DNA of 5,780 nt, taken from positions 1 through 5,780 of the forward strand of contig CACXGS010000389.1 in NCBI GenBank assembly GCA_902767195.1, given 5' to 3'. The translations under genes were made by a program, and so were the position numbers. This document shows positions 883 to 5,685 of this stretch, one piece after another. Below the pieces are notes generated by a model. It worked only from the letters and a program-made list of their open reading frames with translations, did no database searches and was not told where the DNA came from. The stretch's first letter is position 1. The number at the start of each line of letters is the position of its first letter. Source of the DNA: an uncultured Lachnospiraceae bacterium (GTDB lineage: Bacteria; Bacillota_A; Clostridia; Lachnospirales; Lachnospiraceae).

Positions 883-2160
883 TTATTTGTCCTGCTCCAG
901 ACAATCATCTACGCGTATGACGCGTTTTTCATGGACACTGTCCTTAAAGAAATCTTTGACCGAACATCCGGCTCGTCCGGAGGATGCGCAGGCACAGGCA
1001 CAGGCGCAGGAGGATGCGCAGGCGCAGTGTGATGCGCAGGCACAGGAAGATGCGCAGGAAGAATGGTGTGAGCCTCCTGACCGGGAAGATCGGGATGAAG
1101 TCGATCTTCTTACAGGTACATTGACCACATTGACATGGATAAATGTATTGCCTGAGGTTCCGTAAGGATAGGTTCCGTTCTTGGTATACTTCTCCGGATT
1201 CTCAATCTGGTCTTCTTCTACCACTTCTTTGCTCTTGATCATACTGCGGCCACAGTAGGCACAGGTGTCTTTCCCCTCCTCACGGGGAGCACCGCAGCCC
1301 GGGCAGTTCTCGTAATATTCGATCTTTGTACGGGTTATCTTCTTTTTGGTTGGCTGACTGCTTCCGAATCCGACGCCTTCTAAGAGCCAGCGGAAAAGGC
1401 GGTATATGATCACAAAGGGAGTGGCGAAAAAGCCAAACAGAAAGACCAGTCCCAGGAGTCCGGTGATCAGATCCCAAAAAGTGAACTCATCATCGGTTCC
1501 CGAATCGCCCCCGTTCCACTCGCTTTCATTGCCTGCCTGACGGTCTTCGGCAAAGGCAAAGGTATCGTTGGGATAGGTTACAGACATGGTGAATCGTTCT
1601 CCCTCTGCCAGAGATGTCTTAAACACAAGATATCCGGCCTCCTGCTGGCAGTCCGGCTGCCATGCTCCGGCATTTTCCTCATTCCAGCGGATGGTGAGCT
1701 GTTTCACTTCCATTGTGTCAAACCAGGCAGGGGTAAAGGTGTATACCGTCTCCCCTTCCACCCATTTATCAATCTGGTACATGTGGTCCTGGGTCATGGA
1801 AAAGTCTATGCTGACCGTTTCCCCTTCCCCGTAAGCCCGGTCCAGATAGATGGCCAGGGCGTTACCGTTATCACTGATCCGGCTGATGGTGTCACTTAAA
1901 CCGATCACATTTTCATGAAACCGGTTGGGCACGCCCAGGTCGATCCATTCCAGCTTGCCGATGGAATCATCCAGGACTTTCCATACAATATGATAGGTCA
2001 TCTGAAGAGAAGCATCTTCATTGACATCCACCGTAATGGCAAAATCCTGTATCTCGTCAGTCACTTTGGCCTGTGCCGCGACAGGGGATACCAACACCAG
2101 AATCAGGAAAGCTGCTGCAAACACTAAAGATCGGACAGAATATTTTATGATTCGATTCAT
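883..2160 (-). CDS. membrane protein with zinc ribbon and Cys-Ala-rich tail; candidate radical SAM substrate
   Basis: A 425-residue protein without a named family that I can give with confidence. In order: an N-terminal signal peptide (about 1-31, hydrophobic 13-27, possible cleavage after AQA); a beta-rich extracytoplasmic region (about 32-200) weakly reminiscent of DUF2207; an acidic Gly/Asn-rich linker; one membrane segment (about 228-258) followed by Arg/Lys-rich residues, which puts the rest in the cytosol; a zinc ribbon with CPGC (286-289) and CAYC (300-303); a Ser/Arg-rich stretch; then the tail. The tail has Cys at 369, 373, 375, 379, 381, 385, 387, 389, 391 and 399, mostly in CA and CAS units, and passes into GRAGCSVKDFF. 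The ATG shares its A with the TGA of the radical SAM gene, and AGGAGG stands 8 bases upstream. A TTG six bases earlier would leave only 2 bases after that site and is unlikely. I recall similar CA-rich tails ending in a GRAGCS-KDF motif in other Clostridia but cannot check this. The coding region is certain; tail modification by the neighbour is inference. Confidence 0.88.
   Translation of the reverse strand: MNRIIKYSVRSLVFAAAFLILVLVSPVAAQAKVTDEIQDFAITVDVNEDASLQMTYHIVWKVLDDSIGKLEWIDLGVPNRFHENVIGLSDTISRISDNGNALAIYLDRAYGEGETVSIDFSMTQDHMYQIDKWVEGETVYTFTPAWFDTMEVKQLTIRWNEENAGAWQPDCQQEAGYLVFKTSLAEGERFTMSVTYPNDTFAFAEDRQAGNESEWNGGDSGTDDEFTFWDLITGLLGLVFLFGFFATPFVIIYRLFRWLLEGVGFGSSQPTKKKITRTKIEYYENCPGCGAPREEGKDTCAYCGRSMIKSKEVVEEDQIENPEKYTKNGTYPYGTSGNTFIHVNVVNVPVRRSTSSRSSRSGGSHHSSCASSCACASHCACASSCACACACASSGRAGCSVKDFFKDSVHEKRVIRVDDCLEQDK
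983..1058. repeat. short tandem-like repeats encoding the Cys-Ala-Ser units
   Basis: The 10-mer GATGCGCAGG occurs exactly at 983-992, 1013-1022, 1031-1040 and 1049-1058, with offsets of 30, 18 and 18 bases, all multiples of three. GGCACAG/GGCGCAG units fill the space between them. On the coding (minus) strand the repeat reads as Cys-Ala-Ser codons of the membrane protein's tail. The in-frame spacing suggests growth and shrinkage by repeat slippage without loss of frame, so tail length may vary between strains. It is part of the gene, not a separate element. Confidence 0.8.
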
Positions 2161-3557
2161 CAGCAATACCTCCTAAGCGGACACTCTCCCGTCATCTCGG
2201 CGGAATAATCCCTGCGAATGACACAGAACTGGCTATCCCAGATGGATTCCCAGTTGTCTTTTAACATGTTGCCTAAAGGTGGGTCAGACAGCCAGCTCTG
2301 GCATGGAACCACATTTCCTCCCGGCGTGATGGCCATGTTTGAAAGGCAGGCGCCACAGGATGGAGCCGGAATGTTAAGCTCTTCAAAAACCTTCTGGTCA
2401 ATCCAGCCCGGCGACGTAAAGGCAATCTCCATCTCGTTCTCATGGCAGTAGGCAACCGCATCCCGCAGGATGCTTTCCAGTTCCTCTCCTGTCAGCTGGA
2501 GATTCTCCGAGGCTTCAAGGGCTGCATTTCCGGTGGTGATGAGACCGGAACAGGTGACATAGATGACCCCTTTTTCGTGAAGAAATTCAAGGGTCTTGCG
2601 ATAGTCCCTGTTCAAGGTGCAAAGAGGCGTGTTGATGCTGACAGAAAGCCCTTCGGCCAGCGCATTATCAATCCCCTTTACCGTATCTTCGTAGCGCTGG
2701 GCTCCCACCAGCTGATTGTGCACCTCAGGATCCGGCGAATAGAAGGTAATCTGCACACTGTCGAGATCTGCCTGATGAAGCTCTCTGCAGAATTCTTCCG
2801 TCAGCCGGATTCCATTGGTATTCAGGCGGGAGATGAACCAGCGGGCATATTTGACCAGCTCTACCAGATCATCCCGCATGGTGGGCTCTCCTCCTGTAAA
2901 TGTAACCTGGGGGATTCCTATTTCCCGGCATTTATCAAGGATCGCTTTCCAGTCCTCTGTGGTCAGCTCCTCTTCATCGGCCAGAACCTGGTCCGCCGCA
3001 TAACAGTGGACACACTTCTGGTTGCAGTGCCATTTACCGTTTTTGGTCATAGCACTGACCATCAGGTCCATACGATGAGGCGCCGTCATATATTCCGCAT
3101 AATCTCCGATGCTCATATAGTGGATATCCGTCGTCACTTTCTCCCGATAGGCGATCTGCCTCATGGTCTGATAAATGGTCTGAATATCTCCCCGGATACG
3201 TTTCCTGGTGAAAAGAGGAATGATCTTCTTCACATTTTCCACGCTTCGGTCGAGAATACCCTGGATGTCATTGTCATCAATTTCTTTTCCGTCAAACTTG
3301 TTGGTCTCACGGATCATCTCCGCCAGCATGACTGCCCAGGCGAAATTCACCGGTATGATATCGGAACCGTTTATAATGGCAATACTCGGATTCAGCGCGT
3401 TCTCTTCCTTCTTGGGTGGTATCAGGTGGATACGGATCACGCCGGGCCCGTCAGGATTCAATGTTGTGTGCAGAACTTCGTTGAAAGTGGTATCCATATA
3501 GCTTTGGATTCTCTGTATGGTCTTTGTTTTTCTGAAAATTTTAGGTACAGGAATCAT
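2160..3557 (-). CDS. radical SAM/SPASM enzyme, probable maturase of the adjacent Cys-Ala protein
   Basis: A 465-residue cytosolic iron-sulfur enzyme. The [4Fe-4S] cluster that splits S-adenosylmethionine is bound by C178-x3-C182-x2-C185 (CNQKCVHC), followed by T-G-G-E-P (221-225), the SAM-binding GGEP motif. The C-terminus is SPASM-like, with C401-x2-C404, the typical ITPGGNVVPC (C419), LGNMLKDNWESIW, C445, and a final C459-x5-C465, suitable for auxiliary clusters; this domain is typical of enzymes that modify peptides or proteins. About 150 residues precede the radical SAM core and may form a PqqD-like or other substrate-binding domain (inference from position). The protein ends exactly at the last cysteine, so the SPASM region is short. 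GGAGG lies 5 bases before the ATG. The gene starts 63 bases after the lipoprotein gene, with no clear terminator or good promoter in that gap, and overlaps the next gene by one base. The family is certain. Substrate and reaction are inferred: thioether or other cross-links on the neighbour's tail, or metal-cofactor assembly. Confidence 0.93.
   Translation of the reverse strand: MIPVPKIFRKTKTIQRIQSYMDTTFNEVLHTTLNPDGPGVIRIHLIPPKKEENALNPSIAIINGSDIIPVNFAWAVMLAEMIRETNKFDGKEIDDNDIQGILDRSVENVKKIIPLFTRKRIRGDIQTIYQTMRQIAYREKVTTDIHYMSIGDYAEYMTAPHRMDLMVSAMTKNGKWHCNQKCVHCYAADQVLADEEELTTEDWKAILDKCREIGIPQVTFTGGEPTMRDDLVELVKYARWFISRLNTNGIRLTEEFCRELHQADLDSVQITFYSPDPEVHNQLVGAQRYEDTVKGIDNALAEGLSVSINTPLCTLNRDYRKTLEFLHEKGVIYVTCSGLITTGNAALEASENLQLTGEELESILRDAVAYCHENEMEIAFTSPGWIDQKVFEELNIPAPSCGACLSNMAITPGGNVVPCQSWLSDPPLGNMLKDNWESIWDSQFCVIRRDYSAEMTGECPLRRYC
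2169..2174 (-). promoter_or_regulatory. ribosome binding site inside the radical SAM gene end
   Basis: AGGAGG on the minus strand is formed by the two Arg codons in the final Arg-Arg-Tyr-Cys of the radical SAM enzyme. It lies 8 bases before the ATG at 2160, the ideal distance. With the TGATG stop-start overlap this predicts translational coupling and a controlled ratio of enzyme to substrate. It also decides in favour of ATG over the upstream TTG at 2166. Confidence 0.85.
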
Positions 3558-3620: not shown

Positions 3621-4277
3621 CTAATTCGTATACAGTTCTACCGGATCCCATCCCTCGTCCTGGTACTTGGTCACATCAAGACCGTTCATGTTGACATAAT
3701 CGGATACGGTAATCTTTCTGTTCTCGGCCCGGGCAGTATCGTCAGAATAAACTTTCATAAAATCATCGTAATGCTCGCCGAAAAGCTTTTTGGCACTCTC
3801 ATCAAAACCCTCTCCGTCTTCCACCTGATCAAAAGAAGTCACCTTGTAGCCGTCACCGTCTCTTACCAGATGCATAACACCGGGGAAGTTCCCGCCGGAA
3901 ACACATTTTAAAGTATCTCCGTCAACCTTATAATTATCTACCCAGAAATCTCCGGATACTGCAACCTCTTCATCGTTGGTATAATCTACATTTACTATGT
4001 TGACAATCGGGATACTGGCATCTGCCTTATCAAAATTCTTGCTGACTTCTGTCGCCATATACTTGTATACAGCCAGTTCCACAGGATCTTCCCCGGCATA
4101 ACCGTAAGCAGCTCCGGGGAAACTCGGTTCCTCATCAGTATCTTCCACAACCATCTTTTCTGTGGTCGCCTCTGCGGGTTCATTGGCCGGTGTCTGTGCT
4201 GTCTTACTGCATCCGGTAAAACAAAGTGCTGCTGCCAGAGCCATCACAGCAAGCAATGAAAACAATCTCCTTTTCAT
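3621..4277 (-). CDS. secreted lipoprotein of unknown function
   Basis: A 218-residue protein starting with MKRR and a hydrophobic segment, then the lipobox F20-T-G-C23, so it should be lipidated at Cys23 and anchored on the outer face of the membrane. Residues 24-55 form a Thr/Ala/Glu-rich linker. The rest (about 60-218) is strongly acidic, with DPVELAVYKYMA, a beta-rich section containing GDFWVDNY and SGGNFPGVMH, and a C-terminus rich in Asp, Tyr and Trp. The alternation of a helix with beta strands hints at an NTF2-like or similar small alpha/beta fold, but no motif proves it. Only one further cysteine (C125) is present. AGGAGG lies about 6 bases before the ATG. It sits 59 bases after the acylphosphatase gene and 63 bases before the radical SAM gene on the same strand, so it may be expressed with both. 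It could be an outer-face partner of the membrane protein two genes on, but gene order is the only support. I do not recognise a named family. Confidence 0.85.
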   Translation of the reverse strand: MKRRLFSLLAVMALAAALCFTGCSKTAQTPANEPAEATTEKMVVEDTDEEPSFPGAAYGYAGEDPVELAVYKYMATEVSKNFDKADASIPIVNIVNVDYTNDEEVAVSGDFWVDNYKVDGDTLKCVSGGNFPGVMHLVRDGDGYKVTSFDQVEDGEGFDESAKKLFGEHYDDFMKVYSDDTARAENRKITVSDYVNMNGLDVTKYQDEGWDPVELYTN

Positions 4278-4336: not shown

Positions 4337-4612
4337 CTACCATCTTCTGAGCCGGAATTCCGTCTCACCCTCCACGAGTGGAACATCGAAGACATCGGTC
4401 TTCCTGATGCGGACATACCTTCCCTCTCTGATCCCGGCAAGGACCTGGTCGATCTGCCAGTCCGTGCCCTGGACCTCCATAGTCACAGAACCCACATATT
4501 CATTCCGCACCCAGCCGGTTACACCAAGCTTTTCCGCGGCTTTTCTGGCACGATACCGGAATCCGACTCCCTGTACATCTCCGTAAAATGTAAAATGTTT
4601 TCGTTTGATCAT
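4337..4612 (-). CDS. acyP: acylphosphatase
   Basis: A 91-residue protein, the normal length for the family. It hydrolyses the carboxyl-phosphate bond of acylphosphates such as acetyl phosphate or 1,3-bisphosphoglycerate in the cytosol. The signature is complete: GDVQGVGFR (11-19) with the phosphate-binding loop and catalytic Arg19, then LGVTGWVRN (29-37) with catalytic Asn37, followed by G-S-V and V-Q-G, in the usual spacing. The ATG start gives the family's normal N-terminus; the best ribosome binding site, GGGAG, is about 12 bases away, which is long. No in-frame alternative start lies just upstream. It is the first gene of the minus-strand series, with a candidate extended -10 promoter about 80 bases upstream. 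Its metabolic role is probably unrelated to the radical SAM pair. Confidence 0.96.
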   Translation of the reverse strand: MIKRKHFTFYGDVQGVGFRYRARKAAEKLGVTGWVRNEYVGSVTMEVQGTDWQIDQVLAGIREGRYVRIRKTDVFDVPLVEGETEFRLRRW

Positions 4613-4872: not shown

Positions 4873-5685
4873 ATGATAAAAATATGGGATGTTACGATCC
4901 CCGAGCTGACCGGCGACCAACCCCGGCGAGCTTATGTCTACCTGCCTGATTCCTACGGGCAGGAACCGGACCGGCGGTACCCGGTACTCTACATGTTTGA
5001 CGGGCACAATGTTTTCTATGATTCCCACGCCACCTACGGCACAAGCTGGGGTATGAAGGAATACATGGAGCAGACTGAGACACAGCTTATCGTTGCTGCT
5101 GTGGAATGCAACCACGGCCCGGACAATGCGCGGATCTGCGAATATTCCCCCTACTCTTTCAGCAATTCCTACTTCGGTTCCATCCGGGGACTGGGAGATG
5201 TCTATATGCAGTGGCTGATCCGGGAATTCAAGCCCATGATCGACAGAGACTATCGTACCCTTCCCGGCCGGGAGCATACCATGATCGCCGGCAGTTCCAT
5301 GGGAGGGCTGATGAGTTTATATGCGGTACTGAAGTATAATCATATATTTTCCAGAGCCGCCTGTCTTTCCTCATCCGTTCTTTTCTGTGCCGATGACATG
5401 GACCGGCTGGTCCGCCAGGCAGAACTGGACCGGGATACGATCATTTATCTTGATGCCGGATCCGAGGAGATGGGCTATTACAGTGAACAGATCGAAGCAT
5501 ACATCCGGATCATAGCCTCTCTGCTGCGCCGGGGCATCTTTCTGGAGACCAGGATTATTCCGGGAGGCACTCACAGCGAGGCAAGCTGGAGACGCCAGAT
5601 TCCCTTCTTTATGAACACGTTACTTTATGAACATTCTTCCACAGACGAAGATACGAAAACAAATGAACAGGCAAAGGTGAGTTAA
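4873..5685 (+). CDS. Esterase_D-type alpha/beta hydrolase
   Basis: A 270-residue protein of the putative esterase family (Esterase_D, PF00756 type), expected to hydrolyse carboxylic esters, for example acetyl or feruloyl groups or other acyl esters. The fold markers are in order: RRAYVYLPDSY near the start, YPVLYMFDGHNVF (36-48) with the usual oxyanion-region DGHN/DGQN, the nucleophile elbow G140-S-S142-M-G-G with catalytic Ser142, YLDAGSEE with the likely acid Asp194, and GGTHSEASWR with catalytic His234. The catalytic triad is therefore complete. There is no signal peptide, so it should be cytosolic. GGAG lies 8 bases before the ATG. The C-terminal 15 or so residues are Thr/Glu/Lys-rich and probably disordered. 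The next gene begins 3 bases later, indicating co-transcription. The substrate cannot be told from sequence. Confidence 0.93.
   Translation: MIKIWDVTIPELTGDQPRRAYVYLPDSYGQEPDRRYPVLYMFDGHNVFYDSHATYGTSWGMKEYMEQTETQLIVAAVECNHGPDNARICEYSPYSFSNSYFGSIRGLGDVYMQWLIREFKPMIDRDYRTLPGREHTMIAGSSMGGLMSLYAVLKYNHIFSRAACLSSSVLFCADDMDRLVRQAELDRDTIIYLDAGSEEMGYYSEQIEAYIRIIASLLRRGIFLETRIIPGGTHSEASWRRQIPFFMNTLLYEHSSTDEDTKTNEQAKVS

Follow-up and report, generated by a model that had tools for sequence, protein, structure and literature searches.

Why should a gene for a radical S-adenosylmethionine (SAM) enzyme stand directly upstream of one for a membrane protein that ends in alternating cysteine and alanine? The question is raised by a 5,780-nt stretch of DNA from an uncultured Lachnospiraceae bacterium (contig CACXGS010000389.1, assembly GCA_902767195.1), which as a whole is referred to here as the window. 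Its radical SAM/Twitch-like enzyme, of 465 aa with an ATG start, is encoded at 2160..3557 (minus strand), and the Cys-Ala-tail membrane protein, supported by homologue search, at 883..2160 (minus strand; 425 aa from its ATG, although a TTG start at 2166 is possible). The ATG at 2160 shares one base with the stop codon of the enzyme gene (TGATG), and a near-identical public protein of 425 aa (P0001) begins at that same ATG. A preliminary description had remarked on this one-base overlap, on CX3CX2C, GGEP and SPASM-like cysteines within one gene, on the Cys-rich tail of the neighbouring protein and on a target that is a large membrane protein instead of a small precursor. Inspection confirmed the pair on each point (C178/C182/C185, GGEP at residues 222–225 and Pfam Radical_SAM and SPASM matches over cut-off in the enzyme; CASSCACASHCACASSCACACACASSGRAGC, 31 residues with 10 Cys, in the 425-aa partner). 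Such an enzyme beside such a tail suggests an undescribed chemical modification of the tail. From the gene pairing and the conservation of the tail, it is highly probable that the tail is the enzyme's substrate; that the pair is a two-gene system in which the enzyme modifies the Cys-Ala tail of a full-size membrane protein, most likely with thioether cross-links, we hold with a little more than even confidence.

Co-occurrence of the two genes

Scanning species genomes by the tail motif gave at least 593 matching stretches, at least 204 of which encode a relative, and 80 loci were retained (L001–L080). The enzyme gene lay directly upstream of the tail gene in 78/80; the two exceptions, L015 and L041, have a contig start within the tail gene. 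Loci selected by motif are biased towards the tail, and genomes drawn regardless of it were therefore searched for both genes, at E ≤ 1e-60 for the enzyme and E ≤ 1e-5 for the tail family. There were four slightly overlapping draws, and the enzyme and tail searches of each were taken as identical samples (equal size, matching genomes where listed). The enzyme was present in 16/200 genomes of the G001 family, 5/291 of the class, 4/79 of the G005 family and 6/266 of the order, and the tail family in the same 16, 5, 4 and 6. With G001, drawn three times, and G198, drawn twice, each counted once, these are 28 distinct positive genomes. The enzyme and partner genes stood side by side in 28/28, with the Cys-Ala tail itself seen in 26, including G566, whose contig ends inside the tail gene. 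For G402 and G440 the contig end cuts the adjacent partner before the tail; other contigs carry a full tail protein in the former and a tail fragment in the latter. A tail protein without the enzyme was found in 0 genomes across the four draws (200, 291, 79 and 266), a count that may include an occasional miss because first-pass candidates were only partly scored in some genomes. Co-occurrence of the two families, which the preliminary description had offered as a check on its proposal that the enzyme acts on the tail to make thioether links or a metal site, was thus borne out. Tail-model matches over the zinc ribbon only were excluded (G081, G097, G265, G292 and G526, with extra matches in G047, G197 and G198), by inspection of the locus for G081, G097 and one match in G047, and by matched model range for the others.

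The enzyme tracks the tail, not membrane proteins of this sort in general, because most genomes with a DUF2207 protein, the family that the partner's ectodomain distantly resembles, lack the enzyme, and the loci inspected lack the repeat. DUF2207 scored over cut-off in 24/200 genomes, of which 22 were without the enzyme and two were enzyme-positive. CACA occurred in the longest open reading frame (ORF) of 0/10 DUF2207 loci inspected; in nine of these that ORF ends Gly-rich, GGSW or SSW, and the tenth is probably another gene. Genome G090 encodes a 281-aa protein with the ectodomain and no CA tail, and the enzyme was not found there. Separately, one DUF2207 protein (L162, from G161, a genome without the enzyme) has repeated CSSCGGG units in its Gly-rich end.

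Gene pairing by itself is no proof of a substrate, and the enzyme might act on some other molecule, be it a small molecule, a lipid or a different protein, with the tail protein as its membrane partner or receptor. That heme-pathway and MoaA models score highest for the enzyme speaks for such a role, yet the ectodomain protein in G090, tail-less and in a genome without the enzyme, speaks against it, as does the lack of any further shared gene, and we regard it as improbable. When ORFs of ≥80 aa in the 80 loci were clustered (flanks of ≤6 kb, in many cases less), the two partners came back in 67 and 63 loci, and no third family exceeded 14/80. Opposite-strand ORFs at the site of the pair account for the next two clusters (14 and 11 loci), and a further two, with scattered positions, reach 11 and 10.

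Distances among enzymes and among tail proteins correlate strongly (Mantel r 0.918, 84 loci, 0/1000 permutations as high), with a contribution from shared descent. Gene order varies, G446 having two tail genes followed by one enzyme gene. Judged by record titles, the pair is spread through rumen and gut Lachnospiraceae and relatives, the isolate Sarcina sp. DSM 11001 (L023) among its carriers, and two loci (L055 and L064) are titled Eggerthellaceae; the genome of L064 is G005, whose family has the pair in four genomes. Viral contigs gave 152 pattern matches, none of them a relative, and no enzyme match at 1e-50 was found on plasmids. The most divergent pair is that of G440 (L121 and L124), in which the N-terminal part of the enzyme gene contains an in-frame TAA that may reflect decay, error or a code difference; a contig end interrupts its partner within a Gly-rich stretch, and another contig terminates in a CACACACAGGGRVGCSERGY fragment.

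Conservation of the Cys-Ala tail

The tail spans residues 369–399 (964..1056, −), 31 residues with 10 Cys and 10 Ala. Within it lies the CACACACA core (residues 385–392; 985..1008, −), and overlapping its end is a follower, GRAGC[ST]xK[DEN]F[YF] (residues 395–405; 946..978, −). The underlying DNA is a tandem repeat with an 18-base unit (986–1058), which could be read as a sign of a repeat artefact, or of chance neighbours with no functional link. Yet the one core peptide has 75 different DNA spellings across the 80 loci, using all four Ala codons, so that selection acts on the tail peptide despite the repetitive DNA; moreover, the pairing holds in all four genome draws, that of the G005 family included. 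An absence of any functional link can hardly be entertained.

Alignments of 24 and 73 members show core and GRAGC as invariant or almost invariant. The 73-member alignment (A5) comprises tail-protein sequences with 30–70% identity to the window protein. Both motifs were also kept in the first 27 aligned homologues with complete ends from the whole-protein search, a sample without motif selection. That search gave 1299 matches at E ≤ 1e-3, of which the best 120 were examined. A search with the tail only gave 407 proteins, and 77 of the best 120 examined were new relative to the first search. All but one of these 77 carry the same ectodomain, and hence one substrate family is seen; the exception, P0254, matches in the tail part only.

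Tail statistics were drawn from 293 homologous sequences (120 from the whole-protein search, the 77 new proteins found with the tail, and 96 taken from loci), of which 270 contained the required G[RK]xGC and yielded 191 distinct tails; the frequencies that follow are partly by construction, because of this requirement and because many sequences (L001–L080 and the 77 tail-search proteins) were selected by the motif. Ala is the next residue after 1393 (94.6%) of the 1473 Cys within 60 residues before the motif, and Val after 61. Four units make up the last CA run in 114 tails, five in 52, six in 21 and two or three in 4, and the number of Cys ahead of GRxGC ranged from 2 to 10. An Arg after the last CA unit, GRAGC, a following Ser or Thr, and a Lys three residues after GRAGC were each found in 191/191; the Lys was followed by D (170), E (15), N (4) or G (2), and then by F in 185. 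A GRVGC variant exists in G440. The alternation of Cys with a residue that is mostly Ala suggests that the second residue matters chemically, for example as the site at which hydrogen is abstracted and the link accepted.

These figures bear on two other accounts of the tail. In one, its thiols stay free, or are altered only in part, and build a redox relay or a site for a metal or an iron-sulphur cluster, the enzyme making some other change such as epimerisation or serving in cluster assembly. The density of CxCxCxC is like that of metallothioneins, many members have a zinc ribbon in the same part of the protein, and a range of 2–10 Cys would be tolerable for a metal site; yet a plain metal-binding tail would be expected to need no dedicated radical enzyme, from which this tail is never found apart (28/28), and Ala after Cys is more uniform than metal binding demands. 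We think this account rather unlikely. The other is oxidation of a single Cys of the anaerobic-sulfatase type, to formylglycine or similar, with no cross-links. Enzymes of that type use full-size proteins as substrates, and the invariant Arg after the last CA unit would be in keeping with them. The sulfatase target motif, C-X-P/A-X-R, has its Arg four positions after the Cys, whereas R396 lies five residues after the nearest Cys (C391), so the tail departs from it. In addition, the tail has many conserved Cys instead of one, and the AnSME model is absent among the best 25 of the 67 NCBIfam families that match the enzyme, which together leave single-Cys oxidation with very little likelihood.

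The radical SAM enzyme

The enzyme belongs to the radical SAM superfamily (Pfam Radical_SAM, 86.8 bits against a cut-off of 29.5, E 2.4e-24) and to its SPASM/Twitch subgroup (SPASM, 27.1 bits against 21.5, E 5.1e-6). Relatives in the genome loci share 47–82% identity. The CX3CX2C cluster motif (C178, C182 and C185; 3003..3026, −) has all three Cys in 86/86 aligned members, and the GGEP motif at residues 222–225 (2883..2894, −) is evident in the sequence. C313 and C336 are also Cys in 86/86. Further Cys occur at 401, 404, 419, 445, 459 and 465, the first five forming a Twitch/SPASM-like region (2181..2357, −) with C401, C419 and C459 conserved in 86/86 members, C404 in 83/86 and C445 in 84/86. 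The SPASM pattern comprises seven Cys, C-x9-15-G-x4-C and then further Cys that include CX2CX5CX3C. In the enzyme, C404-x9-G414-x4-C419 is followed by C445 and C459, and the CX2CX5CX3C part is absent. The C-terminus therefore resembles a Twitch domain, for which a single auxiliary cluster is expected, more than a full SPASM domain.

When the enzyme family profile was compared with solved structures, the best match was SkfB (E 2.8e-17), spanning the radical SAM and Twitch regions. SkfB is described, in an excerpt of PMC6231123, as a Cys to C-alpha thioether synthase with an N-terminal recognition element, a radical SAM core and a Twitch domain. Residues ~1–172 of the window enzyme make up an N-terminal domain (3042..3557, −), strongly conserved in the family and bearing the motifs TT[LW]NPxGPG, NG and APHR, which is possibly RRE (recognition element)/PqqD-like.

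The partner protein and neighbouring genes

The partner consists of a hydrophobic N-terminus, an ectodomain, a second hydrophobic segment, a zinc ribbon (residues 286–303), a Ser/Gly linker and CASSCACASHCACASSCACACACASSGRAGC. Judged by hydropathy, residues 4–34 (2059..2151, −) are a probable signal peptide and residues 226–257 (1390..1485, −) one predicted transmembrane helix. Basic residues come after the latter, and the C-terminus is therefore probably cytoplasmic. Residues ~35–210 (1531..2058, −) form an ectodomain that is distantly DUF2207-like: PF09972 scores 14.6 bits against a cut-off of 24.4 (E 0.039), which leaves the window protein outside the family, and a match at E ≤ 0.1 was found in 36/73 members. 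The window protein matched no NCBIfam family. The four-Cys zinc ribbon (C286, C289, C300 and C303; 1252..1305, −) is plain in the sequence and matched Zn_Ribbon_1 at E ≤ 0.1 in 16/73 members; it was not seen in the distant members L092–L096, all of which retain ectodomain, hydrophobic segment and tail. One member of 391 aa (P0247) represents 3610 sequences on 49 contigs and so probably comes from an abundant organism.

Upstream of the enzyme gene is a putative lipoprotein of 218 aa (3621–4277, −), with no Pfam or NCBIfam family over cut-off; since a relative at 1e-6 was found in 0/80 loci, it is probably not part of the system. Beyond it are an acylphosphatase (4337–4612, −) and a putative esterase (4873–5685, +), both ordinary by Pfam. 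A tRNA-Ala gene (anticodon CGC; 4–76, −) lies downstream of a metallo-beta-lactamase-fold hydrolase gene (199–840, −).

A proposed modification of the tail

We propose that a cytoplasmic radical SAM/Twitch enzyme would recognise the C-terminal tail of the membrane protein, on the presumed cytoplasmic side, probably through the follower. Because the stretch immediately before the tail varies between subgroups, the follower is a candidate recognition element. The enzyme would then abstract hydrogen atoms within the Cys-Ala repeat, and Cys sulphurs would bond to carbons close by, for which the alpha carbon of each alternating Ala or Val is the likeliest candidate. The tail, still on its membrane anchor, would thereby acquire successive thioether links. 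In ruminococcin C1, the sactionine links that have been reported include Cys5–Ala12 (excerpt of PMC8172795). That the product consists of thioether cross-links we put at about even, or marginally better.

Several observations weigh against this proposal. The chemistry of the tail modification is one that we infer, and we know of no class with strict Cys-Ala alternation, so that the acceptor residue is a guess. Among the best 25 of the 67 NCBIfam families that match the enzyme, none reaches its curated cut-off (NirJ2 leads with 108.9 against 500, and SkfB, TIGR04403, scores 47.8 against 300), and NirJ2, MoaA and AhbD/AhbC slightly outrank PqqE, all far below cut-off. The comparison of the N-terminal domain with a PqqD-like profile gave a weak hhalign match (probability 6% over 31 columns; the score, 21.1, compares with at most 18.96 among 40 shuffles and 14.8 on reversal), PqqD was absent among the best 25 of 49 Pfam families for 66 enzyme members, and the six matches of a PDB profile search (E 0.31–2.9) included none of recognition-element type. 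Finally, GRxGC is missing from 23/293 homologues. By eye, 13 of these break off ahead of the tail or within it, and 10 end differently (P0048, P0050, P0057–P0060, P0064, P0065, P0071 and P0077) while keeping the protein body; some of the ten apparently show the tail read in another frame, and the missing ends may be sequencing errors or real losses.

Relation to known systems

The nearest kind of system is a radical SAM enzyme paired with a Cys-rich target, and the window pair is set apart from it by the size and place of the target, the Cys-Ala alternation, the follower and the absence of any shared gene for a protease or exporter. It is like SkfB/SkfA and other sactipeptide systems in that the substrate contains Cys and the radical SAM enzyme ends in a Twitch/SPASM-like region. 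Sactipeptide substrates are, however, precursor peptides with an N-terminal leader, in clusters that generally add protease and transport genes (PMC8172795, in part). Here the Cys stand at the C-terminus of a 425-aa membrane protein in place of a short precursor, with a conserved follower, and protease or transport genes, which are general but not universal in such clusters, are not commonly shared, since no further gene family occurs in more than 14 of the 80 loci within flanks of ≤6 kb, shorter in many. Because both precursor and cluster features were tested and found wanting, the pair is not classed as a sactipeptide system.

SCIFF, ranthipeptide and other radical SAM/peptide pairs resemble it in that the partner is found by gene pairing and the target is rich in Cys. 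Their targets are small peptides with spaced Cys, whereas an alternating Cys-Ala sequence on a large protein is seen here. A precedent for action on a larger protein is quinohemoprotein amine dehydrogenase, the likeness drawn here being one of function. Its small subunit QhpC is not known to have a Cys-Ala repeat or a membrane anchor. The radical SAM enzyme QhpD forms thioether bridges in QhpC, a protein subunit of an enzyme complex in place of the usual precursor peptide, and joins Cys to methylene carbons, according to an excerpt of PMC8172795.

DUF2207 (PF09972) proteins share weak ectodomain similarity and a low-complexity C-terminal tail with the window protein, which differs in its sub-cut-off score, in having Cys-Ala where nine of the ten DUF2207 loci inspected end Gly-rich, and in its pairing with the enzyme, which 22 of the 24 DUF2207 genomes lack. 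Deletion of a DUF2207 gene in Streptococcus mutans reduced acid and peroxide tolerance (excerpt of PMC10457818). No description of the pair or of the tail motif was found among the open-licence papers listed, as judged by titles and the beginnings of abstracts.

Cross-linking by radical SAM enzymes has mostly been described for small secreted peptides. If the proposal is true, this cross-linking chemistry would extend to lasting cell-envelope proteins of rumen and gut bacteria, made by a conserved two-gene unit that acts on a membrane-protein tail without a shared protease gene. The simple Cys-Ala substrate would be expected to be easy to express, so that the acceptor rule of such enzymes could be directly tested. 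More tentatively, and with somewhat less than even confidence, the pair may represent a new class of radical SAM protein maturation, in which the enzyme would recognise a full-length membrane protein by its C-terminal follower and build a ladder of Cys-to-Ala thioether rings into the cytoplasmic tail, with no cleavage at any stage; gut clostridia and, by horizontal transfer, Eggerthellaceae would thereby gain a covalently stapled tail for structural, sensory or redox use.

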